A DNA stretch of 64,000 bases, from contig NZ_CP102381.1 of assembly GCF_029201445.1 (NCBI RefSeq), forward strand, positions 1,116,001-1,180,000, written 5' to 3'. Source of the stretch: Thiomicrorhabdus lithotrophica. Its GTDB lineage: Bacteria; Pseudomonadota; Gammaproteobacteria; Thiomicrospirales; Thiomicrospiraceae. Positions 558 through 30,417 of this stretch are shown here, one piece after another. The notes under the pieces were generated by a model. The model saw only the letters and a program-made list of their open reading frames with translations. It did no database searches and had not been told where the DNA came from. How positions within the stretch are numbered: the stretch's first letter is position 1; each line of letters starts with the position of its first letter. The translations under genes were made by a program, and so were the position numbers.

Positions 558-3032
558 ATGGCCGAAGTATCAATAAAACAATTTTCAGAGACGCTTAACC
601 TTTCTGTTGACAAACTAATCTCACAGCTTAATGAATCTGGTGTTAAAGGAAAAAAAGAGTCCGATTCTATATCAGAAGAGGAAAAACGCACCTTATTAAG
701 CTATTTAAAAGGTTTGCATGGTGAAACTTCTGAAGAATCACCAAAGAAAGTAACGTTACGTCGTAAGCAAACACTTAACCTTTCAGCGGGTTCTGGAAGT
801 GGTAAGCGTACTGTGAATGTTGAAGTTCGCAAAAAACGTACTTACGTTAAAAAAGCAGAAGTAGCGGAAGAAATCGTTGAGGAAGTCGCACCAGTTGTCG
901 AGACTCCTGTTGTTGAAGCACCAAAAGAAGAAGCACCAGTTGTCAAGGCGCCTGCTCCTCAGGCTCCTGTAGAAGAACCTATTATTCCAGAAGTTGTTGC
1001 TCCAGCACCGCTTAAAGAAGATCATTCTAAAGCCGCTAAAAAGGCTAAAGATCAGCAGCATCACGAAAGTCGTAAGAAAAACGATGGCGTTGATGGGCCT
1101 AAAGGTAAAGCGAACGCTCCGAAAGGCAAAGCGGCTCCAAAAGGCAAAGCAGCTCCAAAAGGTCGTAACTTTAACGATAACCGTCGCGGTGGAAAAGGGC
1201 GTAAAAATCATGTTGATAAGCGCGCTGTTGCTCAAGCAGATAATGAACATGGTTTCCAAAAGCCAACTGAGCCAGTTATTAAAGAAGTGAAAGTTCCTGA
1301 AAGTATTTCTCTTGCGGCTTTAGCGGAACAGATGTCTGTTAAAACCGGTGAAGTTATCAAGTTTATGATGATGGAACTAGGCACAATGGCGACTATCAAC
1401 CAAGTCCTAGATCAAGAAACAGCAATGTTGATTGTTGAAGAGATGGGGCATAAAGCGATTCCATTCACGGAAGTAACGGTAGAAGATGAAGTTGTAAACC
1501 AAGAGTATCATGGTGCAACAGTTACACGTTCTCCTGTAGTTACTATCATGGGTCACGTTGACCACGGTAAAACATCTTTACTAGATTATATTCGTAAGGC
1601 AAAGGTTGTTAGTGGTGAAGCAGGTGGTATTACACAGCATATCGGTGCTTACCACGTTGATACTGATAAAGGTGGGGTAACCTTTATCGATACTCCAGGT
1701 CACGCGGCATTTACTGCAATGCGTGCACGTGGTGCGGATATTACAGACGTTATTGTAATTGTAGTTGCTGCTGATGATGGTGTTATGCCGCAGACTAAAG
1801 AAGCGATTCAACATGCTAAAGCTTCTGGCGTTGGAATGGTTGTTGCAGTTAACAAAATGGATAAAGAAACTGCAAATATGGATCGTGTTATGCAGGAACT
1901 TGCAGCAGAAGAAGTTATTCCAGAATCTTGGGGTGGTGACGTACAGTTTGTGCCTGTTTCAGCTAAAACTGGTTTAGGTATTGACGATTTATTAGATGCA
2001 ATTTCTTTACAGTCAGAAATGTTAGAGCTTGAAGCACCTACTGAAGGCCACGCTAAAGGTGTCGTAGTAGAATCTCGTCTTGATAAAGGGCGTGGAACGG
2101 TTGCGACGGTACTTGTTCAATCGGGTACTTTGAAGAAAGGTGATATTGTTCTTTGTGGTATGGAATACGGTCGTGTTCGTGCCCTGATTAACGATGCTGG
2201 TCAAAATGTAACGGAAGCTGGTCCTTCTATTCCTGTTGAACTTCTAGGTTTATCAGGTGTGCCTGTTGCTGGTGATGAGATGATTACAGTTGAGAATGAG
2301 CGAAAAGCTCGTGAAGCAGCTGTATTCCGTCAAGGTAAGTTTAAAGAACTCAAAATTGCTCGCCAGCAAAAATCTAAGTTGGAAAACATGTTCAACAAGA
2401 TGGCTGAAGGTGAAATGCAGCACATTAATATTATTCTTAAAGCCGATGTACAAGGGTCAATTCAAGCTATTACGGATGCATTGGTTAAGCTTTCAAATGA
2501 AGAAATTCGCGTAAATGTAATCTCTTCTGGAGTGGGTGGAATTAATGAATCTGATGCAAACTTAGCGATTGCTTCTGAAGCTTTAATCTTTGGTTTTAAC
2601 GTTCGTGCAGACGTTGCCGCTAAACGTATTATTGACAGCGAAGGTATTGGTTTAAAATACTACAGCATCATCTATGAAATCGTAGATGAAGTTAAGCGTG
2701 CTGTTGAAGGTAAGTTGGCACCAGAAATTCAAGAGAATATCGTAGGTGTCGCGGATGTTCGTGAAGTCTTTAAGGCTCCGAAGATCGGTTTAATTGCAGG
2801 TTGTATGGTTACGGAAGGTACGGTTAAACGTAACAATCCAATTCGTGTACTTCGCGATAACGTGGTTATTTATGAAGGTCACCTTGAATCATTACGTCGA
2901 TTTAAAGATGATGCTAATGAAGTTAACAAAGGTATGGAATGTGGTATCGGTGTTAAAGACTATAACGACGTTAAAGTTGGTGACCAAATTGAGTGTTACG
3001 AACGTGTAGAAGTAAAACGTACCTTAGCTTAA
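558..3032 (+). CDS. infB: Translation initiation factor IF-2
   Basis: This 824-residue protein is the GTPase that brings fMet-tRNA to the 30S subunit. It has an IF2_N domain at about 1-50, then a long charged, low-complexity linker rich in Lys, Ala, Pro and Glu (about 60-230) with KGKAAPKG repeats. A second IF2_N motif follows, then the G domain with [10 protein letters not shown] (G1), DTPGHAAF (G3) and NKMD (G4), and finally the beta-barrel and C1/C2 domains. Length and order match gammaproteobacterial IF-2. AAGGAAGAG sits just upstream of the ATG. It follows nusA by 13 bp and is followed by a perfect 30-bp palindrome, then rbfA. Confidence 0.97.
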
Positions 3033-3054
3033 TTTAAGGTTCTAAGGTTTGAAA

Positions 3055-3084
3055 TAACAACCTACCAGGCCTGGTAGGTTGTTA
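3055..3084. repeat. Perfect 30-bp palindrome containing TACCAGGCCTGGTA, downstream of infB
   Basis: The 14-bp palindrome at 3063-3076 is extended by eight complementary bases on each side, giving 15 + 15 bp with no loop. As RNA it would fold into a long hairpin just after the infB stop. No U-run follows directly, so it is not a classic terminator. It is the longest member of the dispersed palindrome family in this window. Confidence 0.9.
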
Positions 3085-3103
3085 AATAGCCTTTATTCAA
3101 ACT

Positions 3104-3149
3104 GCCTCAGCACAATTATCAGGTTGATAATTGTAAGTTGGGGCTTTTT
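3104..3149 (+). terminator. Hairpin with U-run between infB and rbfA
   Basis: GCCTCAGC at 3104-3111 partly pairs with GTTGGGGC at the 3' side. Inside it is a perfect 9-bp stem, ACAATTATC/GATAATTGT, with a 5-nt loop. TTTTT follows. It looks like an intrinsic terminator or attenuator separating infB from rbfA, which are normally cotranscribed. Partial readthrough is likely. Confidence 0.6.
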
Positions 3150-6674: not shown

Positions 6675-8768
6675 ATGGCCAAGTTTACCAAAACGTTCCA
6701 ATATGGAAATCATCAAGTCACATTAGAAACTGGAGAGATTGCTCGACAAGCTGATGGTGCAGTAATGGTTGGAATGGGTGATACCCGTATATTAGTTACC
6801 GCTGTTGCATCTAAAACAGCGAAACCAGGACAAGACTTTTTTCCATTAACAGTAAACTATCAAGAGAAAGCGTATTCTGCAGGTCGAATTCCTGGTGGAT
6901 TTCTAAAACGTGAAGGCCGTCCTTCTGAAAAAGAGACATTAACGTCTCGTTTGATTGACCGTCCAATTCGTCCTTTATTTCCTAAAGGCTTCTTGAATGA
7001 AGTACAAATTATTGCAACCGTTGTAGCATTAGACCCAGAAATCGGTACGGAAGTGCCTGCTATGTTGGGTACATCTGCAGCATTAGCTATTTCAGGTATC
7101 CCTTTTGATGGCCCTATTGGTGCTGCCATTGTCGGTTACCGCGATGATGAGTACCTATTAAATCCAAGCCCAGAAAGCCTGCAAACATCAGACCTAGAAT
7201 TAAGTGTTGCTGGTACTAAAGATGCGGTATTAATGGTTGAATCCGAAGCGGCTGAATTACCTGAAGAGGTAATGTTAGGTGCAGTAATGTTTGGTCATGC
7301 TCAAATGCAAGTAGCGATTACAGCAATTGAAGAGATGGCTAAAGAAGTTGGCAAGCCTACTTGGGAATGGGAAGCAGCACCAGAAAATACTGAACTAAAA
7401 GATGCGGTTTTCGGGCTAATTCGTTCTGACGTTGAAGCAGCGTATAGCATTGCAGACAAGATGGAACGTTATAAAGCACTGGATGCTGCTAAAGATAAAG
7501 CGTTAACTGAGTTAGCCGCTTCTGAAGCAAACGAAACTGGTTTTGATGCTAAAGATATTGAAGGCATGTTCGGTAAATTGCAAAAGAACATCGTCCGTGG
7601 ACGAGTAATTGCTGGTGAGCCACGTATTGATGGTCGTGATACTAAAACGGTTCGTGGCATTCAGTGTAAAGTAGGCGTTTTACCTCAAGTTCATGGTTCG
7701 GCTTTGTTCACCCGTGGTGAAACACAGGCATTGGTTGTAACAACGTTAGGAACAGAAAGAGACGCTAAGATTGTTGATGATCTAACCGGTTCTTACCATG
7801 ACCGTTTCATGTTGCACTATAACTTCCCTCCGTTCTCGGTAGGTGAGTGTGGTCGTACTGGTAGTCCTGGTCGTCGTGAAATTGGTCACGGTATGTTAGC
7901 TCGTCGTGGTGTTGCTGCATTGCTACCAACGGCAGAAGAGTTCCCATACACCATTCGTGTTGTTTCAGAAATCACAGAATCTAACGGTTCGAGTTCAATG
8001 GCATCAGTTTGTGGTACTTCAATGTCATTAATGCATGCAGGTGTGCCAATTGCAGCGCCTATTGCTGGTATTGCTATGGGTCTTATTAAAGAAGAGGGTG
8101 GTTTTGCTGTTCTTTCAGATATCTTAGGTGATGAAGATCATCTGGGTGATATGGACTTTAAAGTAGCGGGTACCGATGAAGGTATTACGGCTCTACAGAT
8201 GGATATCAAAATTACGGGTATCACTGAAGAGATCATGCAAATGGCGCTTGAGCAAGCAAAAGCAGGTCGTTTATATATCTTAGATGAAATGTCAAAAGAG
8301 ATTAGTTCATCCAATGCAACGGTTGGTGCAACGGCTCCAAGATTCTTTACTGTTAAAGTAAAACCAGAAAAAGTACGTGAAATCATCGGTAAAGGTGGAG
8401 CAACTATCCGCTCTATCACCGAAGAAACAGGCTGTGTTATTGAGATAGACGATGACGGTAGTGTAAAAATCGCTGCTAAAAATGATGAGTCTGCAAATGC
8501 CGCTAAAGCACGTATTGCTGAAATTACGGTTGAGCCTGAAATTGGCAAAACTTACGATGCCGTCGTTAAGAAAATTGTAGATTTCGGTGCGTTTGTCGCT
8601 TATATGCCTGGTCGTGAAGGTCTAGTTCACGTTTCTCAAATCGCTGAAGAGCGAGTAGAAGATGTAGCTAAGTATCTAGCAGAAGGTCAAGAAATTCGTG
8701 TTAAATTAACCGATATTGACAAGCAAGGTCGTGTAAAACTTTCTATTAAAGCTGTAGATTCTGAATAG
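6675..8768 (+). CDS. pnp: Polyribonucleotide nucleotidyltransferase (PNPase)
   Basis: The 697-residue protein is the phosphorolytic 3'-5' exoribonuclease of the degradosome. It has two RNase PH domains, with [22 protein letters not shown] in the first and the active second core with [16 protein letters not shown] and the [19 protein letters not shown] loop. A KH domain ([20 protein letters not shown], near 555) and a C-terminal S1 domain ([21 protein letters not shown]) follow. Length and order are typical. AAAAGGACAGAAT precedes the ATG. Autoregulation through the hairpin just upstream is likely. Confidence 0.98.
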
Positions 8769-8795
8769 TCGTTAAATCTTAATACTATTCTCACT

Positions 8796-8824
8796 AAAGG
8801 TCGCCTTATGGCGGCCTTTTTTGT
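8796..8824 (+). terminator. pnp terminator
   Basis: AAAGGTCGCC-TTAT-GGCGGCCTTT with one G-U pair, then a T-run. Confidence 0.85.
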
Positions 8825-8924
8825 CTATAATTACCGAACTAAAAAATTATAACAACTCAATTTTTGTAAAGTATATGAACTCTTTTCATGATGAAAATAT
8901 CATTGTGAATATAACGGAATATCT

Positions 8925-11867
8925 ATGAGCCAAAACCAATCATTATCAAATAACACGACTCACTCTGCTTTTGAATTTAAAGGCGAGCATGAAATTGATT
9001 CACTTAATTTAACGATTCAGCATTACCAACATAAGGTAACCGGGGCAACGCATTATCACTTAGCTGCTGATGACCCGCAAAATGTGTTTTTGGTGGCTTT
9101 AAGAACTGTACCAATGGATTCAACAGGTGTCGCGCATATACTTGAACATACAACCTTATGTGGTAGTGAAAAATATCCCGTTCGTGATCCATTCTTTATG
9201 ATGATTCGTCGTTCGTTAAATACCTTTATGAATGCATTTACCTCTAGCGATTGGACGGCTTATCCTTTTGCAACCGAGAACCGTAAAGACTTTCAGAACC
9301 TATTACAGGTTTATATGGATGCGGTATTCTTTCCAAATTTAGACGCGTTAGATTTTGCACAGGAAGGGCACCGTTTTGAGTTTACGGATATGAAAGATTC
9401 AAATTCTGATTTAACCTATAAAGGTGTGGTATTTAACGAGATGAAAGGGGCGATGAGTTCGCCTGTTTCAACACTTTGGCAAGAGTTCTCAGCAGAGTTG
9501 TATCCAACAAGTACCTATCATTACAACAGTGGTGGTGAACCAGAAGATATTCCAAACTTAACGCATCAGCAGTTATTAGATTTTCACAAACTGCATTATC
9601 ACCCATCCAATTCTGTCTTTATGACTTATGGGGATATCCCTGCCATTGAGCATCAAACGCAGTTTGAAACGCTAGGTTTAGAGCGTTTTAAAGATACTGT
9701 TCCTGAAGTTCATGTCGGATTAGAGCCACGTTATGCTGAACCAAAAGTGGTTGAAAAGTCTTACGCACTAGATGAAGAAGATATCTCAGCTAAAACACAC
9801 ATTGTTTTAGGCTGGTTGTTAGGGCAAAACCAAGACCCATTGCAAGTATTACGTGGTCACTTACTATCGGCTGTTCTGCTCGATAACAGTGCATCGCCTT
9901 TGCGTAAAGTGTTAGAAGAGACTGAACTTGCGAATGCACCATCACCTTTATGCGGTTTTGAAGAATCGAATAAAGAGATGGCGTTTGTAGTAGGTGTACA
10001 AGGCTCTGAACCTGAGCATGCTCAGGCTGTAGAAGAGATGATACTAACCGAGCTGCAACGCATTGCAGACGAAGGTGTTGATCAATCTCAAGTAGAAGCG
10101 ATGCTGCATCAATTAGAGCTTTCTCAGCGTGAAGTAGGCGGTGATAGTTATCCATATGGTTTACAGCTCATTCTGCACTCGCTAGCAGGCGCTTTGCATG
10201 ATGGTGACCCAATTGCATTATTGGATACCGATGCCGCACTTAAGCAACTTGAAGGTGAAGTAAAGTCGCCTGATTTTATACCAGGCCTGGTAAAAGAACT
10301 ATTGTTAAACAATACGCATAGAGTGCGTTTAACGATGAAGCCAGATACTGAGTTATCAGCACAAAAAGAACAGGCTGAAAAAGACAAGTTAGCTGCAATT
10401 CAAGCTAAGTTAACAGAGGCAGAGAAACAAGCAATTATTGACCAAGCCGTAGCGCTAGAAGAGCGCCAATCTCAAGAAGATGATCCAAGTATTCTTCCTG
10501 AAGTGACTAAAGAGGATATTCCTGCAGAGATTAAACACTATGCGGCCAATACCTCAAAAATTGCCGATATGAAAGTGAGTAGCTATCAGTGTGGAACCAA
10601 TGGATTAACTTATGAACAGTTAATTATTGATTTACCAGAATTAACTGAGCAAGAGCAAGCTTTAATGCCGCTGTTCAATAGCTGTTTAACTGAGGTAGGC
10701 ACCCAGCAGCGTGATTATATTGAGATGCAATCTCACCAGGCAGAGGTCTCTGGAGGAATTGGTGCTCGTTCAAGCATACATTCTAAGATTGGTGATCCTC
10801 AAGGTTGCCATAGTCACTTTATGTTGTCTTCAAAAGCATTAAATTGTAACCAAAAGCCAATGGCTGAATTACTTAATGAAACTCTAAATGAAGCCCGTTT
10901 TGATGAAACAAATCGCCTTAAAGATTTAGTGTCTCAAATTCGCGCCTCAGTTGATCATGGTATTACCGGTAATGGTCATGGTTTAGCGATGATGGCGGCA
11001 ACGCAAAACTTTACTCCAGCGGCTCGTTGGAAGTTTGAACGTTCTGGTTTTGCAGGGATTCAATACATTAAAACATTGAATGAAGACTTAAAGTCAGATG
11101 AAGCTATGGCTAGTTTTTCAGAAGGTTTAAGCTCTATTCAGTCAAAGTTAAAAGCGTCTTCTAAGCAAGCGTTAGTGATTAGTGATGAACCAGGAATCGA
11201 TTCTGCATTAGAGTCAATGAACAGTGTTTGGAGCAAGGTTGAGCAATCATCTGGCAGTCAAAAAGGTTTTGAATTTGCAGCAAGCCAAAAACCAATTAAC
11301 CAGGCCTGGGTAACCAGTACTCAGGTTAACTTCTGTGCCTTAGCTTACCCAGCGGTAACATCAGATCATGAAGATGCGCCTAAGTTATCCGTACTGGGTG
11401 CTTGCTTACGAAATGGTTTCTTACATTCAGCCATTCGTGAGAAAGGTGGTGCCTATGGCGGCGGCGCGTCTTACAACCCAGAAGCCAGTGCATTTGTATT
11501 TTATTCTTATCGTGATCCACGTTTAATGGAAACGTATGATGACTTTAAACGTGCACAAGAGTGGTTAATGAGTTCAGAAGCGACTCAAGCCAAAGTGGAT
11601 GAAGCTATTTTAAATGTCATTAGTTCAATGGATAAACCGGGTTCACCAGCAGGTGAGATGAAAAAAGCCTTCTTCCAAGGCTTGTACGGACGTACTCATG
11701 ATATTCGTATGGCGTATCGTCTAGGCGTCATCTCTACCACGATAGAAGAGTTAAGAGTGTTGGCAGAAAAGTATTTAACAAACGAAAATACTTCTTCTGC
11801 GGTTTTAACAAATACAGGTGGTGCTGAGTTGTTAGCAGATTCTGAATTTGAGATTATTACACTTTAG
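8925..11867 (+). CDS. PreP-like M16C zinc metallopeptidase
   Basis: The 980-residue protein belongs to the presequence protease / M16C family, which degrades short unstructured peptides inside a closed clamshell chamber. The inverted zinc motif HxxEH is present near residue 70 as HILEHTTLCGS, and the distal Glu helix is KGVVFNEMKGAMSS. C-terminal halves with the Arg-Tyr type region (GGAYGGGASYNPEASAFVFYSYRDPR) follow. There is no signal peptide, so it is cytosolic. It contains one exact palindrome copy (PGLV) and one weak copy (QAW). It stands alone with its own upstream gap. Confidence 0.9.
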   Translation: MSQNQSLSNNTTHSAFEFKGEHEIDSLNLTIQHYQHKVTGATHYHLAADDPQNVFLVALRTVPMDSTGVAHILEHTTLCGSEKYPVRDPFFMMIRRSLNTFMNAFTSSDWTAYPFATENRKDFQNLLQVYMDAVFFPNLDALDFAQEGHRFEFTDMKDSNSDLTYKGVVFNEMKGAMSSPVSTLWQEFSAELYPTSTYHYNSGGEPEDIPNLTHQQLLDFHKLHYHPSNSVFMTYGDIPAIEHQTQFETLGLERFKDTVPEVHVGLEPRYAEPKVVEKSYALDEEDISAKTHIVLGWLLGQNQDPLQVLRGHLLSAVLLDNSASPLRKVLEETELANAPSPLCGFEESNKEMAFVVGVQGSEPEHAQAVEEMILTELQRIADEGVDQSQVEAMLHQLELSQREVGGDSYPYGLQLILHSLAGALHDGDPIALLDTDAALKQLEGEVKSPDFIPGLVKELLLNNTHRVRLTMKPDTELSAQKEQAEKDKLAAIQAKLTEAEKQAIIDQAVALEERQSQEDDPSILPEVTKEDIPAEIKHYAANTSKIADMKVSSYQCGTNGLTYEQLIIDLPELTEQEQALMPLFNSCLTEVGTQQRDYIEMQSHQAEVSGGIGARSSIHSKIGDPQGCHSHFMLSSKALNCNQKPMAELLNETLNEARFDETNRLKDLVSQIRASVDHGITGNGHGLAMMAATQNFTPAARWKFERSGFAGIQYIKTLNEDLKSDEAMASFSEGLSSIQSKLKASSKQALVISDEPGIDSALESMNSVWSKVEQSSGSQKGFEFAASQKPINQAWVTSTQVNFCALAYPAVTSDHEDAPKLSVLGACLRNGFLHSAIREKGGAYGGGASYNPEASAFVFYSYRDPRLMETYDDFKRAQEWLMSSEATQAKVDEAILNVISSMDKPGSPAGEMKKAFFQGLYGRTHDIRMAYRLGVISTTIEELRVLAEKYLTNENTSSAVLTNTGGAELLADSEFEIITL
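10279..10292. repeat. TACCAGGCCTGGTA palindrome, exact, in coding sequence
   Basis: Exact copy in the M16C peptidase gene, read as PGLV (FIPGLVKE). Confidence 0.9.
11298..11311. repeat. Weak palindrome copy in coding sequence
   Basis: AACCAGGCCTGGGT, three mismatches, in the M16C peptidase gene, read as NQAW. Confidence 0.5.
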
Positions 11868-15384: not shown

Positions 15385-16350
15385 CTATAAATCTTCTAAA
15401 GGGCTAATTACGCCACGCCCGCCTTGATTAAGTACGTGAGTATAGATCATGGTAGTTTCAACATTTTTATGTCCCAACAACTCCTGTATCGTACGAATGT
15501 CATATCCTGACTCTAATAGATGCGTTGCAAAGCTATGACGTAGAGTGTGAGGTGTCACTTTTTTATTAATTCGTGCCTTTGCGGCCGCCTGCTTTATTGT
15601 TCTTTGTATGCTTTGTTCGTGCATATGGTGTCGGCGCTTAATGCCGGAGCGTGGATCGGTAACAATGCTTCTACTTGGAAATACAAATTGCCAAGCAAAT
15701 GTTTTATTTGCATTTGGATATTTACGCGACAACGCATTTGGAAGATGCACCTCACCATAACCATTTTCTAAATCCATGGTATGAATGCGTTGTGTTTCAT
15801 TAATCTGGTCTTTTAATAGCGTGAAAGTGCTTGCAGGTAGCATTACTCGACGGTCTTTATCACCTTTACCAGAACGAACAGTGATTGTGCTGTAGCCAAA
15901 ATTAATGTCTTGAACACGTAATCGAACGAGTTCCATTAGGCGTAAACCACAGCCATATAACAATTTAACGTGTAGTTGATAAGCAAGCGGGATATATTCA
16001 AATAAATGTTTAACCTCGCTTTTAGTTAAAACAACAGGTAGCCGAACTGGCTTTTTTGCACGGGTAACATTTTCAACCCAAGGCGGCTCAACTTGCAAAA
16101 CCTCTTTATACATAAACAATAAAGCGGCTAAAGCTTGGTTTTGAGTAGAGGCCGCAACATTTTTATCAACCGCCAAATGAGTTAAGAATTGTTCCATTTC
16201 AAGTTTACCCATCTCAGCCGGATGGCGTTTATTGTGAAAGAAAATAAATTTCTTAATCCAGCCTACGTAAGCCTCTTCAGTTCGTATAGAATAATGCTTA
16301 ACTCTAATGCACTCGCGCACCAAGTCTAAAAAACGTGGTTTATTAGCCAT
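15385..16350 (-). CDS. intI: Integron integrase (tyrosine recombinase)
   Basis: This 321-residue site-specific recombinase catalyses attI x attC and attC x attC recombination of single-stranded cassette DNA. It has an N-terminal SAM-like domain (VRECIRVKHYSIRTEEAYVGWIKKFI), then the catalytic domain with Arg in GCGLRLMELVRLR, HTLRHSFATHLLE (HxxR) near residue 277 and the Tyr nucleophile in TTMIYTHV. The extra integrase-only patch is clear: FAWQFVFPSRSIVTDPRSGIKRRHHMHE separates IntI from XerC/D. It is divergent from the cassettes. I saw no LexA-type box upstream. Confidence 0.95.
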   Translation of the reverse strand: MANKPRFLDLVRECIRVKHYSIRTEEAYVGWIKKFIFFHNKRHPAEMGKLEMEQFLTHLAVDKNVAASTQNQALAALLFMYKEVLQVEPPWVENVTRAKKPVRLPVVLTKSEVKHLFEYIPLAYQLHVKLLYGCGLRLMELVRLRVQDINFGYSTITVRSGKGDKDRRVMLPASTFTLLKDQINETQRIHTMDLENGYGEVHLPNALSRKYPNANKTFAWQFVFPSRSIVTDPRSGIKRRHHMHEQSIQRTIKQAAAKARINKKVTPHTLRHSFATHLLESGYDIRTIQELLGHKNVETTMIYTHVLNQGGRGVISPLEDL

Positions 16351-16461
16351 GTTTTATGCCTTCTAAATAAATTTGTTGAATTGATATTAATCAATAATAA
16401 CATTAACTTAATGGTTTTATAAGTACTAAATAAAACTGGAAAACGGCATTTTTATAGTAGG

Positions 16462-16491
16462 TTGACATACGTAATATAACTATATTAGGAT
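16462..16491 (+). promoter_or_regulatory. Candidate cassette promoter (Pc)
   Basis: TTGACA at 16462-16467, an 18-bp spacer and TAGGAT at 16486-16491, pointing into the first cassette from the intI-attI interval. The -35 is perfect and the -10 matches 4 of 6. The position fits a cassette promoter lying just before attI. Confidence 0.55.
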
Positions 16492-16502
16492 GTCTAATAA
16501 TA

Positions 16503-16509
16503 GTTAAGT
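16503..16509 (+). other. Candidate attI/cassette junction core
   Basis: GTTAAGT fits the GTTRRRY core where cassettes insert. It lies 153 bp from the intI start and 15 bp before the first cassette start codon. The exact attI limits cannot be set from sequence alone. Confidence 0.55.
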
Positions 16510-16524
16510 ACTCAGGGAGTAACG

Positions 16525-17625
16525 GTGAGTAGATTAGAGAAATGGAAAAACGAGCAACGTAGGCTCACGATTCTCACAGGTGAAAACCAAGAGTTGGCAG
16601 ATGCTATACATTCTCTACAACCTGAGGATGATGACCGCCCTACAATGAGCAATTTTGACTTAATAAATATTGCAAAAGAGCTTATTTATACGAATGAAGG
16701 TGGGAAGCGATCTATCCACATAATATGCTATTCGTTCAATATTGATCGTGGAGAAGTAGAAGTTTGCCACCTTTTAGATCAGATTCTAGAGGAAGATTAC
16801 GAAGAAGATATTCTAAGCACTTTAGCTATAGCAGCAGTGGCTGAAGTTCCTGTATATCCAAACACTCGAGATTGCGAAGAGGAACTAACAGAATTACATC
16901 GTAAGATGATTGAAAGCGGTTTCAAAATTCAAGGAAAGAGATATCAGCTAACATCTCGGCAGTCTGATGAGTTTGAGAGTGCAAAAAAGCTAATTTCAAG
17001 TATCGATCCTGAAAAACATTACTCTCCCTCTGATATTTCAATCATTCGAAAGACTATTAAGGAAGAGTTGTCAAACCTTGAAAGCGCTGATCGGCTGCTA
17101 CTGAGTTTACAACTAGCAATTGACGAATTTACAGTACTTCTCGAGTCAGAGAAGAGAAATGAGAATTCTATACAAGCGCACCTTACAAATAATCCAATAC
17201 TCTTTGGGTTCGAATATAAGCGTGTTATACCTAAGCACCGCTTAGGCGGCGAATACGAAACTGATTATGCGTTAGAAAAATATGATGGTTCATGTGATGT
17301 AGTGGAGCTAGAGTCTTCAAATCTTAAGCTGTACACAAAAAATGGCAACCCAACTAGTCATCTAGTACATGCGGAACAGCAAATATTAGACTGGCTAGAT
17401 TGGATTGATAAAAACAATTCATATGCAAGAACTTCGCTAAACGGCCTTTATTCACCATCAGGGTTTGTAGTAATTGGCAGACGAGATAGCTTGTCTGAGT
17501 TAGATTTAGAGCGATTACGTAGGCGGAATATATTCTTTAACGGTAAGATCAAGGTGTTAACCTACGAAGACCTGTTGGAGAGAGGGAGTGATATGCTTCG
17601 GAGGTTAAAAGGTGATCGTACTTAA
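16525..17625 (+). CDS. Shedu-like DUF4263 nuclease, first integron cassette (probable anti-phage defence)
   Basis: The 366-residue protein has a C-terminal half (about 205-366) that reads like DUF4263, the nuclease domain of Shedu (SduA). It has an HLTNNPILFGF helix, RLGGEYETDYALEKYDG, then DVVELESSN, HAEQQILDWLDW, SGFVVIGRRD and KVLTYEDLLERG. Putative PD-(D/E)xK residues are D247, E261 and E263. The usual catalytic Lys (E-x-K) is replaced by Glu, so activity is uncertain. The N-terminal half is unrecognised and may sense phage. Start GTG at 16525 with AGGGAG upstream. The stop codon lies inside the attC core, which is typical of a cassette. Confidence 0.75.
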   Translation: MSRLEKWKNEQRRLTILTGENQELADAIHSLQPEDDDRPTMSNFDLINIAKELIYTNEGGKRSIHIICYSFNIDRGEVEVCHLLDQILEEDYEEDILSTLAIAAVAEVPVYPNTRDCEEELTELHRKMIESGFKIQGKRYQLTSRQSDEFESAKKLISSIDPEKHYSPSDISIIRKTIKEELSNLESADRLLLSLQLAIDEFTVLLESEKRNENSIQAHLTNNPILFGFEYKRVIPKHRLGGEYETDYALEKYDGSCDVVELESSNLKLYTKNGNPTSHLVHAEQQILDWLDWIDKNNSYARTSLNGLYSPSGFVVIGRRDSLSELDLERLRRRNIFFNGKIKVLTYEDLLERGSDMLRRLKGDRT

Positions 17626-17691
17626 CAAAGCGCTGCTGTCGGACAAATTTTCCGCTGCGCTCCAAATTTGCCGCAGAGCGCGGCGTTATGC
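17620..17691 (+). repeat. attC site 1
   Basis: A 72-bp imperfect inverted repeat from ACTTAAC (17620) to GTTATGC (17691). The arms include GCGCTGC and CCGCAGAGCGC, plus an inner pair AAATTTTCC/CCAAATTTG. It ends the Shedu-like cassette. Confidence 0.85.
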
Positions 17692-17707
17692 ATAAAAAGG
17701 AAGAATC

Positions 17708-18031
17708 ATGAGTGAATCAATTATTATTGCTTTAATAGGTGTGGGTGGTGCAGTGATTGGTTCAGTTGCAACTCTTGCGGGTAATTTTTTCATTCATTGG
17801 CTAAAGAATATAGATGAAAAGAATAAAGAAAAGCCTGCAAGGGAATTACTTACGGAAATGTTAAATCACAAGGAACATAAGTGGCGTAATTTGGACATAT
17901 TAATGCATGTGATTGGTGCTAATGAAGAAACCACAAAACGGCTGCTTCTTGAGGTAGGTGCTAGAGCATCAGAGGACGGACAGTGTTTATGGGCATTAAA
18001 ATCACGTGCGCCATTAAATACTGGAAAATAA
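17708..18031 (+). CDS. Small membrane-anchored protein, second integron cassette
   Basis: The 107-residue protein has one N-terminal hydrophobic segment (IIIALIGVGGAVIGSVATLAGNFFI, about 5-29), a charged stretch (KNIDEKNKEKPARELL), and a C-terminal part (HKWRNLDILMHVIGANEETTKRLLLEVGARAS) that resembles a small helical or winged domain, ending with GQCLWALKSRAP. Function is unknown. AAAAAGGAAGAATC gives a good ribosome site. A single-pass protein with a cytosolic C-terminal domain is the simplest topology. It is one of five single-gene cassettes. Confidence 0.75.
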   Translation: MSESIIIALIGVGGAVIGSVATLAGNFFIHWLKNIDEKNKEKPARELLTEMLNHKEHKWRNLDILMHVIGANEETTKRLLLEVGARASEDGQCLWALKSRAPLNTGK

Positions 18032-18032
18032 T

Positions 18033-18093
18033 GCATAACAAAACACTCAAGCCGACTGCGCTAACGCGCAGCCGCTTAGCTTAATCGTTAGAC
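18033..18093 (+). repeat. attC site 2
   Basis: A 61-bp site from GCATAAC to GTTAGAC. The arms GCCGACTGCGC and GCGCAGCCGC surround TAAC. It is nearly identical to attC site 4. Confidence 0.88.
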
Positions 18094-18106
18094 ATCTGAG
18101 TCACGC

Positions 18107-19174
18107 ATGTTGAAAAAATGCCTCAATGAATTTGAACAAATAGCAATAATGCCATTCTCTAGGGTGCTTCTTGAGCACAACTTCGAGATTGACGAGTTTG
18201 CATTCTTTGAGCGAGGGGCTCTAGACCTTGAGTCGTTAAACCCAATAGAAAATGAAAGCTTTGAAGATCTCAGTGCTTATAAACTAAGCGGTGAAATTGA
18301 TCCTCAATACGGTAGTCAAATGCTCAGGCGGGCTACGACATCCCTCACGGAATTTGATCTGGATGTTTTAAAAAATCACCCAACAGTGGTTTTTCCAGTT
18401 TCCATTGATATGGAGAAGTTTTTAAATTTTCATCATCAGGAAGATGTTGATTTAATTAAAAAGCTGTCATTTATAGCAGAGAAAGCGATGGATATGATTC
18501 GTTTCGAGCTATGTCGTTTAGATCTGCCGGACACTCTTCCTGGTACGATTGGGTCTTGGGAAGGTTCAAGTGACTATCTGGGAGCTCTTATTTATGACAA
18601 ACGGATGAGTAAAAGCTTTTTGATTGCAGGCTCAGCTGTTGAGTCAACTCAGGTCGTAAAAGGTATTGGACTAGAAATTGACCGTTACACATACCATCCA
18701 ATACCCAAACCTGAATACGGAGAGCTTGCATCGTATGCCCATCAAGCGCTCATGTTGCTAACTGACGCCATGAGCTCACCAAATAGTACTGTAAAGTTCA
18801 TGCGAGTGATGGGCTTGTTGGAATTTCTGGCAAGCCCAAATGAATATCAAACTTGGAAAAAAATAAAATGTGATTTGGCCTGTCATATTGCCAAAGACAA
18901 AACTAAATACCATACGCTATTAGATAGGTTTCGTATGCTTACATCTATCAAAGATGACAATGATAATGAAATAGGCTATCGAACACTTGTTGTACACCAA
19001 GGTAAGTATCTACCTGATCTTGTTGGTTCTCACGAAGAAGTTTCGAACTTATTTAAAGAATTACAATATTATGCTTCGTGTGTTATTCGAGACATGATGG
19101 ACAACCCGTCTTGGTCGTGGGCAGAGTTTTCAAGCTATAGAAACACTTTGAAAATTAATCTCGGCGTAAAATAA
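18107..19174 (+). CDS. Unknown protein with HEPN-like RxxxxH motif, third integron cassette
   Basis: The 355-residue protein was not assigned to a named family. It is soluble and mostly helical in the C-terminal half. A stretch GYRTLVVHQGKYLPDL holds R292 and H297, the R-x4-H spacing of the catalytic motif of HEPN RNases, and sits in a helical context (DRFRMLTS before, LFKELQYYASCVI after) like ApeA/abortive-infection HEPN domains. The N-terminal half (about 1-200) is unrecognised. A defence role is inference from the motif and from its neighbour in the cassette array. No clear Shine-Dalgarno precedes the ATG at 18107. Confidence 0.65.
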   Translation: MLKKCLNEFEQIAIMPFSRVLLEHNFEIDEFAFFERGALDLESLNPIENESFEDLSAYKLSGEIDPQYGSQMLRRATTSLTEFDLDVLKNHPTVVFPVSIDMEKFLNFHHQEDVDLIKKLSFIAEKAMDMIRFELCRLDLPDTLPGTIGSWEGSSDYLGALIYDKRMSKSFLIAGSAVESTQVVKGIGLEIDRYTYHPIPKPEYGELASYAHQALMLLTDAMSSPNSTVKFMRVMGLLEFLASPNEYQTWKKIKCDLACHIAKDKTKYHTLLDRFRMLTSIKDDNDNEIGYRTLVVHQGKYLPDLVGSHEEVSNLFKELQYYASCVIRDMMDNPSWSWAEFSSYRNTLKINLGVK

Positions 19175-19176
19175 AT

Positions 19177-19287
19177 GCCTAACAAATCCAAGCAACGGAC
19201 ATTTTTTGCGCGGCTTCTTTTGTGTTTTAATGCTACGCTAACACAAAACAATCCACACAAAAAATGCCGCTGTTTCAGGCGTTATAT
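19177..19287 (+). repeat. attC site 3
   Basis: A 111-bp site from GCCTAAC (19177) to GTTATAT (19287). The long arms include a GCGGCTTCTTTTGTGTTTT stretch against AACACAAAACAATCC and ATTTTTTGCGC. It is the longest attC in this array. Confidence 0.78.
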
Positions 19288-19309
19288 GCAATTAAACGGA
19301 GAAAAAAAC

Positions 19310-19660
19310 ATGAAAATTCCAGCAATATTTCTTACCTTGTTAGTAATGTTATTCGCTTCTAGCGCATTTGCTCAACAAACATGCCGCACAGACTCCTTCG
19401 GAACAACTAGATGTAGTGATGGCTCAACATACCGTACAGACTCTTTCGGCACAACCAGAGACAATAAAGGGAACTCATGGAGAACAGATTCTTTCGGTAC
19501 TACTAGAGGCAGTGATGGCTCAACATACCGCACAGATTCTTTCGGCACGACCAGAGACAATAAAGGGAATTCTTGGAGAACAGATTCTTTCGGTACTACT
19601 AGAGGCAGTGATGGTACAAATTGTCGCACTGATTCTTTTGGCACAATGCGTTGTAACTAA
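19310..19660 (+). CDS. Secreted 16-residue tandem-repeat protein, fourth integron cassette
   Basis: The 116-residue protein starts with a Sec signal peptide (KIPAIFLTLLVMLFASSAFAQQ). Five tandem 16-residue units RTDSFGTTRxxxGxxY/W/C follow, then a partial RTDSFGTMRCN. Cys residues flank the repeat block at both ends, suggesting a disulfide-closed periplasmic or surface module. The ATG at 19310 was chosen because ACGGAG precedes it and the signal peptide starts there. An in-frame ATG at 19175 lies in the previous cassette's attC and would prefix 45 unrelated residues. Function is unknown. The DNA repeats (48 bp) run 19385-19624. Confidence 0.8.
   Translation: MKIPAIFLTLLVMLFASSAFAQQTCRTDSFGTTRCSDGSTYRTDSFGTTRDNKGNSWRTDSFGTTRGSDGSTYRTDSFGTTRDNKGNSWRTDSFGTTRGSDGTNCRTDSFGTMRCN
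19385..19657 (+). repeat. 48-bp coding tandem repeat, five units plus a partial
   Basis: In-frame repeats that encode RTDSFGTTR followed by seven variable residues. The variable parts alternate (SDGSTY, DNKGNSW), so a 96-bp higher-order period is visible. Confidence 0.9.
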
Positions 19661-19662
19661 GC

Positions 19663-19723
19663 ACATAACAAGGCACTCAAGCCGACTGCGCTAACGCGCA
19701 GCCGCTTAGTTAAATCGTTAGGT
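19663..19723 (+). repeat. attC site 4
   Basis: A 61-bp site from ACATAAC to GTTAGGT, about 90 percent identical to attC site 2, with the same GCCGACTGCGC/GCGCAGCCGC arms. Confidence 0.88.
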
Positions 19724-19775
19724 GAGCAAATCAAGGCTGTAAGCTAGTGATTTGTTAATAACAATATTAGGTAAT

Positions 19776-20387
19776 ATGAATCCATTTTTAGAAGAACTTT
19801 TTAATGTTATTGCTATTGATATTGAGTATCTAAATGGGTATTTAACATCAAGCGAAATGGATTATCTCAATACCACTTTTAAGTCTATCGAAGATTTGAA
19901 TAGTGATTTCTACACTGACGAGCAGGGTCTGAACCTAGAGGCTTTACTGTTTTTTCTATTCCGTCACTCAAAGGATATAACCTCAATCTGGGAAGACCGA
20001 AGTAAGAAAGAAGTTTTGGTAGCATTATACACATCAGTAACAATCTCTGGGAATTACGATTGCTTTCACTTTGACCTTTCCAAATTTGAACTCACATTTG
20101 AGCCGAGTGGTCAAGAATTGACTTTGTATCGGATCGGTCGTGTAAGTGAGGTGATTGAAAGTCTCGGAAATTCATGGGCTAAAGATGGCTCAGGACTTAG
20201 AATCTATGCTGAATCCTCATCTATAGATATAGGAACTCGTCCTATATTCGAGGTCAAGGTTAATGATTCAGAAGTATTGTGTCAGGGTAAGTCGCAAGAA
20301 AGTGAATTGATTTTAAAGAAAAATTTCAAGTGCAATGAGGTCAAGTTACTTAATGTGGAAGAACGTCATACGTTATTGATTAATTAG
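19776..20387 (+). CDS. Unknown protein, fifth integron cassette
   Basis: This is a 203-residue, acidic, probably cytosolic protein. No family was recognised. Aromatic-rich beta segments such as YDCFHFDLSKFELTFEP and GLRIYAESSSIDIGT, together with the size, are reminiscent of immunity-type proteins, but this is only impression. The start is placed at the ATG at 19776 (MNPFLEELF) with TTAGGT upstream. A TTG at 19752 would add eight residues. Confidence 0.7.
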   Translation: MNPFLEELFNVIAIDIEYLNGYLTSSEMDYLNTTFKSIEDLNSDFYTDEQGLNLEALLFFLFRHSKDITSIWEDRSKKEVLVALYTSVTISGNYDCFHFDLSKFELTFEPSGQELTLYRIGRVSEVIESLGNSWAKDGSGLRIYAESSSIDIGTRPIFEVKVNDSEVLCQGKSQESELILKKNFKCNEVKLLNVEERHTLLIN

Positions 20388-20403
20388 TGTCGAGCAATGC
20401 TTC

Positions 20404-20505
20404 ACCTAACAATAGCATTAAGGATGGACGTATAAAAGCTTGGCTGCGCTCATCCTTCGCTTAGTATAGCCAAGCTTTTATTCGCCACTTATGCGGGCGT
20501 TAGGG
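20404..20505 (+). repeat. attC site 5 (end of cassette array)
   Basis: A 102-bp site from ACCTAAC to GTTAGGG. The long arms AAGGATGGACGTATAAAAGCTTGGCTGCGC... and ...TAGCCAAGCTTTTAT form a good cruciform. No further cassette or GTTRRRY core was seen after it, so the array seems to end here. Confidence 0.83.
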
Positions 20506-20704
20506 CCAATATAAATTAGAAGTGCTCACACTGAATCTAATTAGTCTGCTTTAGGTTGTTGAATAATCTGTTAACGGTATTAATTCATAAGTTAACGAGT
20601 AGTTAAATTGCAAAAATATGACCATTATTGGCAATTATTTCAATATTGAACTAGAATTCACCATTATCTAAATAATCTCATTACACATAACAAAGAGTAT
20701 ATAC

Positions 20705-21055
20705 ATGGCCAAAGGCATTATTAAACGTTTTGACTTCCGAAAAGGTTTCGGGTTTATTGTTGACGATAAAACTGGTGAAGACCTGTTTTTTCACAAAACT
20801 GCATGGCAGGGCGATGGGCCTATTCGCCAGGGTTTAGCGGTTAAGTTTGTAAACAAAGATTCAGAAAAAGGCCCTCAGGCTGATTCTGTTATTCCTTTAG
20901 ACGGTGGCAAAACTCGTAAGAAAAAGCCTGCAGCAAAACCAGCTTCATTAGAAGAGCGTGTAGCGTCTTTAGAAAGCTCTGTCGTTACCTGGAAAACTTT
21001 AACCTTATTATCTCTTGTTGGGGTTATTACTCTAGCGGTTTTAACTGTTTTTTAA
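20705..21055 (+). CDS. Cold-shock-domain protein with C-terminal transmembrane segment
   Basis: The 116-residue protein has a CspA-type domain at residues 1-66 with RNP1-like KGFGFIVDD and RNP2-like DLFFHKTAW motifs, so it should bind single-stranded nucleic acid. A Lys/Pro-rich linker (KTRKKKPAAKPAS) and a short coiled-coil (LEERVASLESSV) lead into one hydrophobic helix (TLTLLSLVGVITLAVLTVF). A membrane-tethered RNA-binding protein is implied. It sits just after the integron. The unusual paired inverted repeats at 21095-21153 lie in its 3' region. Confidence 0.85.
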   Translation: MAKGIIKRFDFRKGFGFIVDDKTGEDLFFHKTAWQGDGPIRQGLAVKFVNKDSEKGPQADSVIPLDGGKTRKKKPAAKPASLEERVASLESSVVTWKTLTLLSLVGVITLAVLTVF

Positions 21056-29712: not shown

Positions 29713-30417
29713 ATGAACTTGGTAAAACCTTCCATTATTTCATTGGCAGTGCTTATGTTATTAGGCTGTTCTTCGAACACAAAGACCTATTCATATACTC
29801 AAGCTGACATTGATTTATTAATAGAAAGAGCCAAGGTTGAAGAACGTCAAAGAATTAGCCGAGAATTAGACAGACAAGCTGAGCAAAGACGCGTATTTGA
29901 TAGTATTTTAGCAAGACAAAATGCTCAATATAAAACCGTTGATAAAGAGGTTGGTGGTCAATCACAAACAAAATCAGACAAATCCGATAGCCATAATATT
30001 AATGAATCAAAGCCAATAACCAAAATTATTCCGCAGTCATACAAGCCTGTTCTGTATAAAGAAATTGCAGGCATATCTTATATGCGTTGTGCTGAACTTT
30101 CATTAGTTCCGATTCCGACTGATGCTAAAGGTTGGAGTTATAAAACTGGACAAAAAGAGTTGACTGCAACGCTTTGTAAGGGAAGTAGAGATAAATCGAT
30201 CATGCTGGCTTTACAGCAGAAATTGTATGACATGAAGTTGTTATCTTCGGATGTTTTAACTAAAGAACAGCTCGTAGATGGTGTATGGAACGAGAGTACA
30301 TTAACAGCGGTTAAAGCGTATCAGGCAGGAAATGGTCTGTTATACGGGTCACTTACTATTGAAGTGTTGGAGCATTTGGGTGTTTTTGAGCCTGATGAAG
30401 AACGAGTGGTTAGATAA
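29713..30417 (+). CDS. Lipoprotein with coiled coil and peptidoglycan-binding-like C-terminus
   Basis: The 234-residue protein has a lipobox (LAVLMLLGC, Cys20). A charged helix rich in Glu and Arg follows (ADIDLLIERAKVEERQRISRELDRQAEQRR), likely a coiled coil, then a Ser/Lys-rich linker. The C-terminal region (ALQQKLYDMKLLSSDV...DGVWNESTLTAVKAYQAGNGLLYGSLTIEVLEHLGV) resembles PG_binding_1 folds, which bind cell-wall peptide stems. It is probably an outer-membrane lipoprotein touching peptidoglycan. AAAAGGTAAAAA precedes the ATG. Confidence 0.72.
   Translation: MNLVKPSIISLAVLMLLGCSSNTKTYSYTQADIDLLIERAKVEERQRISRELDRQAEQRRVFDSILARQNAQYKTVDKEVGGQSQTKSDKSDSHNINESKPITKIIPQSYKPVLYKEIAGISYMRCAELSLVPIPTDAKGWSYKTGQKELTATLCKGSRDKSIMLALQQKLYDMKLLSSDVLTKEQLVDGVWNESTLTAVKAYQAGNGLLYGSLTIEVLEHLGVFEPDEERVVR

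Follow-up and report, generated by a model that had tools for sequence, protein, structure and literature searches.

A Shedu (SduA) protein with Glu at the nuclease Lys position, encoded in an integron cassette of Thiomicrorhabdus lithotrophica

The Shedu gene and its cassette

The window, by which we mean the whole stretch of 64,000 nucleotides analysed, carries a Shedu (SduA) coding sequence on its forward strand (16525-17625), which starts with GTG, encodes a product of 366 residues and ends with a TAA codon inside an attC site. Just upstream, on the opposite strand, lies an integron integrase gene (15385-16350, 321 residues; TIGR02249 integrase_gron, E = 9.7e-143; Phage_integrase, PF00589). 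With an integrase upstream and an attC directly 3', the Shedu gene occupies the position of first cassette, as the sequence-only reading had proposed. This attC (17620-17691, forward strand) reads ACTTAAC...GTTATGC over 72 nt, takes in the Shedu stop codon within its first bases, and joins both ends through 20 pairs when its bottom strand is folded. Using DNA parameters, it folds into an attC-typical hairpin of -16.6 kcal/mol; the z against shuffled sequence is -1.75, and 13 of 200 shuffles fold equally well. At the other end, the cassette boundary G^TTAAGT (16503-16509, forward strand) places the putative recombination point at 16503/16504, giving a cassette of 1182 bp (16504-17685, forward strand) up to the corresponding point inside the attC.

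Behind it come three more attC sites (18033-18093, 19663-19723 and 20404-20505), making four in a row behind the integrase. A scan over 17 kb, weak when taken alone, gave 8 matches on the forward and 9 on the reverse strand, including these four sites, where three shuffles scanned on one strand gave 3-5. Three of the other four forward matches lie wholly or mostly within coding sequence and were taken as probable chance hits, and the remaining one lies at 30254. Judged from its sequence, the stretch with the four retained sites (17620-20505) is a small chromosomal integron. The cassettes behind the first encode a protein of 107 residues (likely with a membrane helix, by eye), a pair of 355 and 161 residues, and one of 211 residues, respectively. 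None of these proteins has a Pfam match, and those of 107, 355 and 211 residues also lack a PADLOC match. A tandem array with a period of 48/96 bp (19378-19646) lies within an open reading frame at 19175-19660 and encodes repeated units of the RTDSFGTTR type.

The gene had also been described as the cassette nearest to the promoter Pc. Its first place in the array stands; a Pc as such does not emerge, as 16340-20750 contains 14 promoter-like sites, at the level of the shuffled sequence (13.0 +/- 3.5), and the best one ahead of the gene (TTGACA-18-TAGGAT, 16462-16491) is among them. That this cassette is the best expressed would thus follow from its position only.

Close copies of the protein are found in Halomonas faecis (L001, 92% identity) and Pseudoalteromonas gelatinilytica (L002, 90%). 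The three nucleotide sequences are alike from GTTAAGT onward and unlike upstream of it; this identical boundary in three genera indicates that the cassette has moved between them. The Halomonas copy has an attC behind the gene (7096-7167) that forms an equivalent long hairpin (z -1.34, -10.1 kcal/mol); its right end deviates from the consensus, and the scan missed it for that reason. At the same positions in Pseudoalteromonas the similarity stops roughly midway through the attC, its left half being kept, and there is no hairpin (z 0.98); no convincing attC was found in that 13-kb locus, and the cassette looks stranded outside an array. A protein of the HEPN_LA2681 type is encoded downstream of the Pseudoalteromonas Shedu gene (7469-9199). 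An attC directly upstream of the Shedu gene is seen also in Halomonas and in L030, a locus from the same phylum outside the class of the window (703-759). Defence genes including Shedu have already been reported in integron cassettes, according to a passage of PMC12444791, and the present gene adds a Shedu example that moved between genera with its boundary intact.

Family assignment, predicted fold and selection

The gene product is a member of the Shedu/SduA (DUF4263) family by its signature domain: Pfam PF14082 (SduA_C) matches residues 212-351 with 59.8 bits, over the curated cut-off of 27. The PADLOC SduA model PDLC00389 aligns end to end, with residues 1-364 on model positions 1-379 of 383 (E = 9.8e-128), and 13 more PADLOC SduA models match with E no higher than 3e-4, chiefly over the C-terminal portion. 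An NCBIfam scan of the 366-residue protein gave no match. The earlier assignment to a Shedu-like, DUF4263-containing protein is therefore borne out by both the Pfam and the PADLOC match.

The nuclease domain covers residues 190-362 (17092-17610, forward strand), as delineated by PF14082, by the model confidence and by structural similarity. In an AlphaFold model built from a 14-row alignment, pLDDT is 71-95 in the blocks that cover residues 191-360 and does not exceed 55 in those preceding them. When the model is ranked against the PDB with VIA-align, the first four entries are all SduA: 8ps4 (Z 16.9, rmsd 3.2 over 183 residues, 21% identity, within model residues 178-363), 8ps5 (Z 16.4), 8ti9 (Z 15.6) and 8ti8 (Z 14.2). 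The E. coli structures 8ps4 and 8ps5 are reportedly those of Loeff et al. 2025, and the B. cereus structures 8ti8 and 8ti9 are said to be those of Gu et al. 2025. A clear gap follows, the next entry being the nickase Nt.BspD6I with Z 9.4. The top Foldseek match is DNA-bound E. coli SduA (4e-9). A comparison of an AlphaFold model with the SduA structures had been suggested along with the claim of a PD-(D/E)xK fold; it yields a confidently predicted nuclease domain of this fold. Neither outcome named beforehand as refuting, a model lacking the fold or the absence of a DUF4263 match, was obtained. In the model, the acidic pair is located on the core strands, with D247 just ahead of strand 248-252 and E261 within strand 257-262.

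The nuclease domain is preceded by about 190 residues, a putative sensor or regulatory half (residues 1-189; 16525-17091, forward strand). Modelled alone, residues 1-212 reach a mean pLDDT of 42.6. This half has no domain match in Pfam or NCBIfam, and a PDB profile search with it gave no significant match; it had been called unrecognised and possibly new, and the first holds for Pfam and NCBIfam. PDLC00389 already spans this half, however, so that it is no novelty of the present gene. PADLOC DrmC matches residues 34-105 weakly (E = 0.00046), and two more distant relatives, L019 and L030, have no DrmC match at 1e-3. A degenerate phospholipase-D-like N-terminus was considered and set aside: profile comparison with a DrmC/PLD alignment, which kept some HxK-pattern rows that are plainly not PLD proteins, gave a non-significant P of 0.04 over 31 columns. 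A winged helix at the end of this N-terminal half was likewise set aside (AspA match, E = 0.021, not significant). Searching 398 genomes of a phylum sample with the N-terminal half retrieved two clear matches, in the window and in L030, both fused to this nuclease, and three weak ones (E 0.004-0.07). Two of the weak matches (L066 and L067) were rejected, as their reading frames resemble, by eye, unrelated housekeeping proteins. In type I Shedu proteins, diverse N-terminal regulatory domains precede the nuclease, as stated in section 15 of PMC12409362.

Comparison of the three close copies shows a gene under strong purifying selection. Synonymous change among them is high (dS 0.97-1.76, NG86), and the whole-gene dN/dS of the three pairs lies at 0.037-0.044 by NG86 and 0.038-0.062 by YN00; for the nuclease half it is 0.019-0.041 (NG86, three pairs). 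Full-length similarity extends to L030 (43% identity) and to L019 from Planococcus (40%), both of which also match PDLC00389, and the acidic residues are among the most constant positions across the relatives. The L019 record (1-1329) is a linear Planococcus 'plasmid' of 1329 bp made up almost entirely of the SduA gene, and may be an assembly fragment. Taken together, this pattern speaks against decay and suggests that the protein is kept for its function, which does not prove catalysis as such. Among 62 genomes of the window's order, a full-length profile search found a match in the window's own genome only; an ExK-type Shedu occurs in one other genome of its genus (L016).

Active-site residues of the ExE and ExK groups

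The translated sequence reads D247, E261, L262 and E263 (VVELESS), placing the three acidic residues exactly as the sequence-only reading had them. In a profile alignment to the solved SduA proteins, E263 falls on the Lys of EVK in 8ps4 and of EIK in 8ti8; the Lys of the ExK motif is hence absent here and its position is taken by Glu. The putative metal ligand D247 is encoded at 17263-17265, the ExE motif E261-L262-E263 at 17305-17313, and the segment HAEQQILDW, running from H282 to W290, at 17368-17394 (all forward strand). The latter corresponds to HAxxQxxxW, where many ExK rows have QxxxY, a motif comparable to that of RecB-type nucleases.

To place these letters in the family, SduA_C relatives were collected from the fetched loci, giving 47 rows, of which 45 were scored and two were fragments without a readable motif. 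ExE is found in 14 of the 45 and ExK in 31 (DxK in one of these); since many ExE rows were found by an ExE query, 14/45 is not a prevalence for the family. All 14 ExE rows have QxxxW and 12 have HAxxQ. QxxxY occurs in 13 ExK rows, and His is absent at the place of H282 from all 28 ExK rows with a letter there; a Trp in two ExK rows stems from an alignment insertion, another alignment giving Gln there. Removal of fragments below 115 residues left 39 rows (13 ExE, 26 ExK), and of three near copies 10 ExE and 26 ExK rows. In this reduced set D247, E261, E263, Q286 and W290 are present in 10/10 ExE rows, and H282 in 9/10; W290 and H282 each occur in 0/26 ExK rows. R319 is shared more evenly (9/10 ExE, 13/26 ExK). 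Over both groups, Asp is found in 36/36 rows, Glu in 35/36 (Asp once) and Q286 in 36/36.

The replacement of Lys by Glu is thus confirmed, while the notion of a change particular to this gene is not. As ExE is common to many relatives and comes with Trp and usually His, it represents the site of a subfamily rather than a single-gene change or decay. The ExE rows vary in N-terminal length, and at least two different PADLOC SduA models (378 and 389) score best among them. Having Glu at this position, the protein is filed outside the ExK group and under SduA/DUF4263, whose Pfam and PADLOC models match other ExE rows as well. As a Shedu member it is unremarkable; what sets it modestly apart is that it cleanly exemplifies a group whose active site is altered and co-varies. 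The use of another Lys had also been considered. A conserved lysine was sought across the 10 non-redundant ExE rows and none was found, which makes a substitute Lys unlikely; the candidates K237 and K272 are invariant in five full-length rows including the window, but vary in the wider ExE set.

Searches with the Pfam model only returned 18 places in a phylum sample and 20 in a class sample, two of them common to both. ExE is present at 6 of these 36 distinct places (the window, L030, L034 and the places of L005, L006 and L010), a fraction in which a single broken gene is counted as two pieces (L059, L063) and that the Pfam model may lower by leaning to ExK. The ExE Shedu gene of L006 (G174:C49) is in pieces, broken by an in-frame stop. 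On an E. coli plasmid typed IncHI1A/IncQ1 (L038), an ExE Shedu gene lies at 2489-3124 between two transposase genes; the E. coli/Salmonella plasmid matches listed are as identical to the query as L038 is, and plasmids of this kind may commonly carry genes like it. A DNA-level search of E. coli genomes gave no match, nor did a tblastn search of phages at E up to 0.01. Among the viral scans, two contained no relative and one a single distant ExE row (L037).

Phylogenetic trees offer a view on the origin of the motif. In the first tree, with 39 rows, the 13 ExE rows share one branch (support 93/92) with the ExK row L032 (G451:C4), which has QxxxY, otherwise ExE-like surroundings and a long branch, and is a possible intermediate or reversion. 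In the tree without the motif columns, the ExE/ExK label needs 4 changes, and the test of a single clade gives a p-AU of 0.106. A single ExE origin is thus neither established nor rejected by these sequence trees. The motif letter clusters in both trees (0/500 shuffles as low), a pattern that kinship of the rows alone can cause.

Among the titles and abstract openings listed, none describes an ExE Shedu or reports activity for this group; an earlier account is possible. In the wider PD-(D/E)xK superfamily some members have E, Q or N in place of the third-motif Lys, a tolerated variant according to passages of PMC1189080 and PMC4081073. Such documented replacements mean that E263 does not disqualify the protein from PD-(D/E)xK membership.

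Interpretation and comparison with known systems

Based on family assignment, predicted fold, conserved site residues, purifying selection and analogy to characterised relatives, the gene probably encodes an active, metal-dependent, single-protein Shedu anti-phage nuclease of the ExE type, carried by an integron. In this mechanism D247 and E261 would bind the catalytic divalent metal. E263, at the Lys position, may act as an acidic group that positions metal or water, and not as a positive charge, in the manner of BamHI. Q286 and W290, together with H282, would shape the pocket. BamHI itself is active with such a site, and the numbers of the residues concerned are defined in it. In Shedu, sensing of DNA ends relieves autoinhibition, and the E. 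coli SduA tetramer holds DNA ends with an N-terminal clamp and nicks DNA near its ends, as summarised in parts of a review (PMC12904381). By extension, the N-terminal half might hold the nuclease off until a phage-related cue arrives (a DNA end in E. coli SduA), whereupon the released protein would cut phage DNA. In V. cholerae VcSduA, a K557A change in the nuclease domain abolished defence (cited passage of PMC12137116), indicating that the Lys matters where it is present. This counts against the reading, under which ExE proteins would work without a Lys.

The first alternative concerns how the site works. The lost Lys could have been replaced by H282 of HAxxQ, so that ExE, His and Trp form a separate catalytic type, a reading that we regard as rather doubtful. 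The near-exclusive occurrence of H282 and W290 in the ExE rows of the non-redundant set agrees with it, as does the model, in which H282 is located in helix 278-296 one helical turn ahead of Q286, on the same helix. However, two ExE proteins have Leu in place of this His, namely that of the E. coli plasmid typed IncHI1A (L038) and a near copy of it from Serratia (L040), and the rows are related, such that the association of His with ExE is not independent evidence. A bolder version, to which we give an equally tentative standing, would treat ExE as a catalytically distinct type of Shedu: the change of Lys to Glu, the His four residues before Gln and the shift from QxxxY to QxxxW would have arisen as a set, with acids and His replacing Lys, possibly with another metal or substrate, and would have spread through integron cassettes and plasmids.

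Somewhat less likely again is a dead domain, in which catalysis is lost and the remaining role is DNA binding (or interference with the processing of phage DNA) or the sequestration of a partner. The protein indeed lacks the Lys on which VcSduA depends, according to the part of PMC12137116 cited above, and no conserved Lys replaces it. On the other hand, D247, E261 and E263 are invariant over deeply diverged ExE rows, where a dead domain would be expected to show some loss, and purifying selection on the gene is strong. An inactive protein, as considered in the sequence-only reading, thus fits poorly with a dN/dS of about 0.04 and with the invariance of these three residues together with Q286 and W290.

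PD-(D/E)xK folds act on several substrates. Activity on RNA or a nucleotide signal, with abortive infection instead of phage DNA cutting, could be read from the weak resemblance of the model to the CARF-linked nucleases Card1 (Z 8.4) and Can2 (Z 7.4; values under 8 in VIA-align may reflect merely a common arrangement), but it is improbable, given that these matches rank far below SduA (Z 16.9) and that E. coli SduA nicks DNA near its ends (PMC12904381, in part).

An active Shedu nuclease of the ExE type would have consequences for how the family is read. The solved Shedu chains compared here carry Lys, and the Lys-to-Ala variant of VcSduA served as a dead variant (passage of PMC12137116). If ExE proteins are active, Lys is no safe mark of activity for about one sixth of the sampled family places (6/36), and the ExE/ExK pair offers a natural experiment on the role of the Lys in the Shedu nuclease.

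Among known systems, the full-length match is to PADLOC PDLC00389, described just as 'DUF4263 domain', and no difference from it was found. With E. coli SduA (8ps4, 8ps5) the protein shares the SduA_C fold and the D, E and Q of the active site, whereas EVK and QxxxY there stand against ELE and QxxxW here. B. cereus SduA (8ti8, 8ti9) likewise has the SduA_C fold (Z 14.2 and 15.6, respectively); it differs in reading EIK in 8ti8, while the chain in 8ti9 reads IAIK, with Ala at the Glu. Both proteins also have another N-terminal half: up to E = 10, our query profile retrieves no SduA chain. V. cholerae VcSduA resembles the present protein in its C-terminal DUF4263 nuclease and in single-protein defence (predicted for the ExE protein), and differs in its GHKL ATPase N-terminus and in K557, which is needed for defence, as far as the cited part of PMC12137116 describes it. 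Any kinship of fold with BamHI is distant at best: BamHI cuts site-specifically as a type II restriction enzyme, shows no sequence relationship to the protein in this analysis, and is absent among the 50 PDB matches listed by VIA-align. What it shares with the ExE proteins is a PD-(D/E)xK site with Glu at the Lys position, as described in section 22 of PMC4081073 and in the background of PMC1189080.
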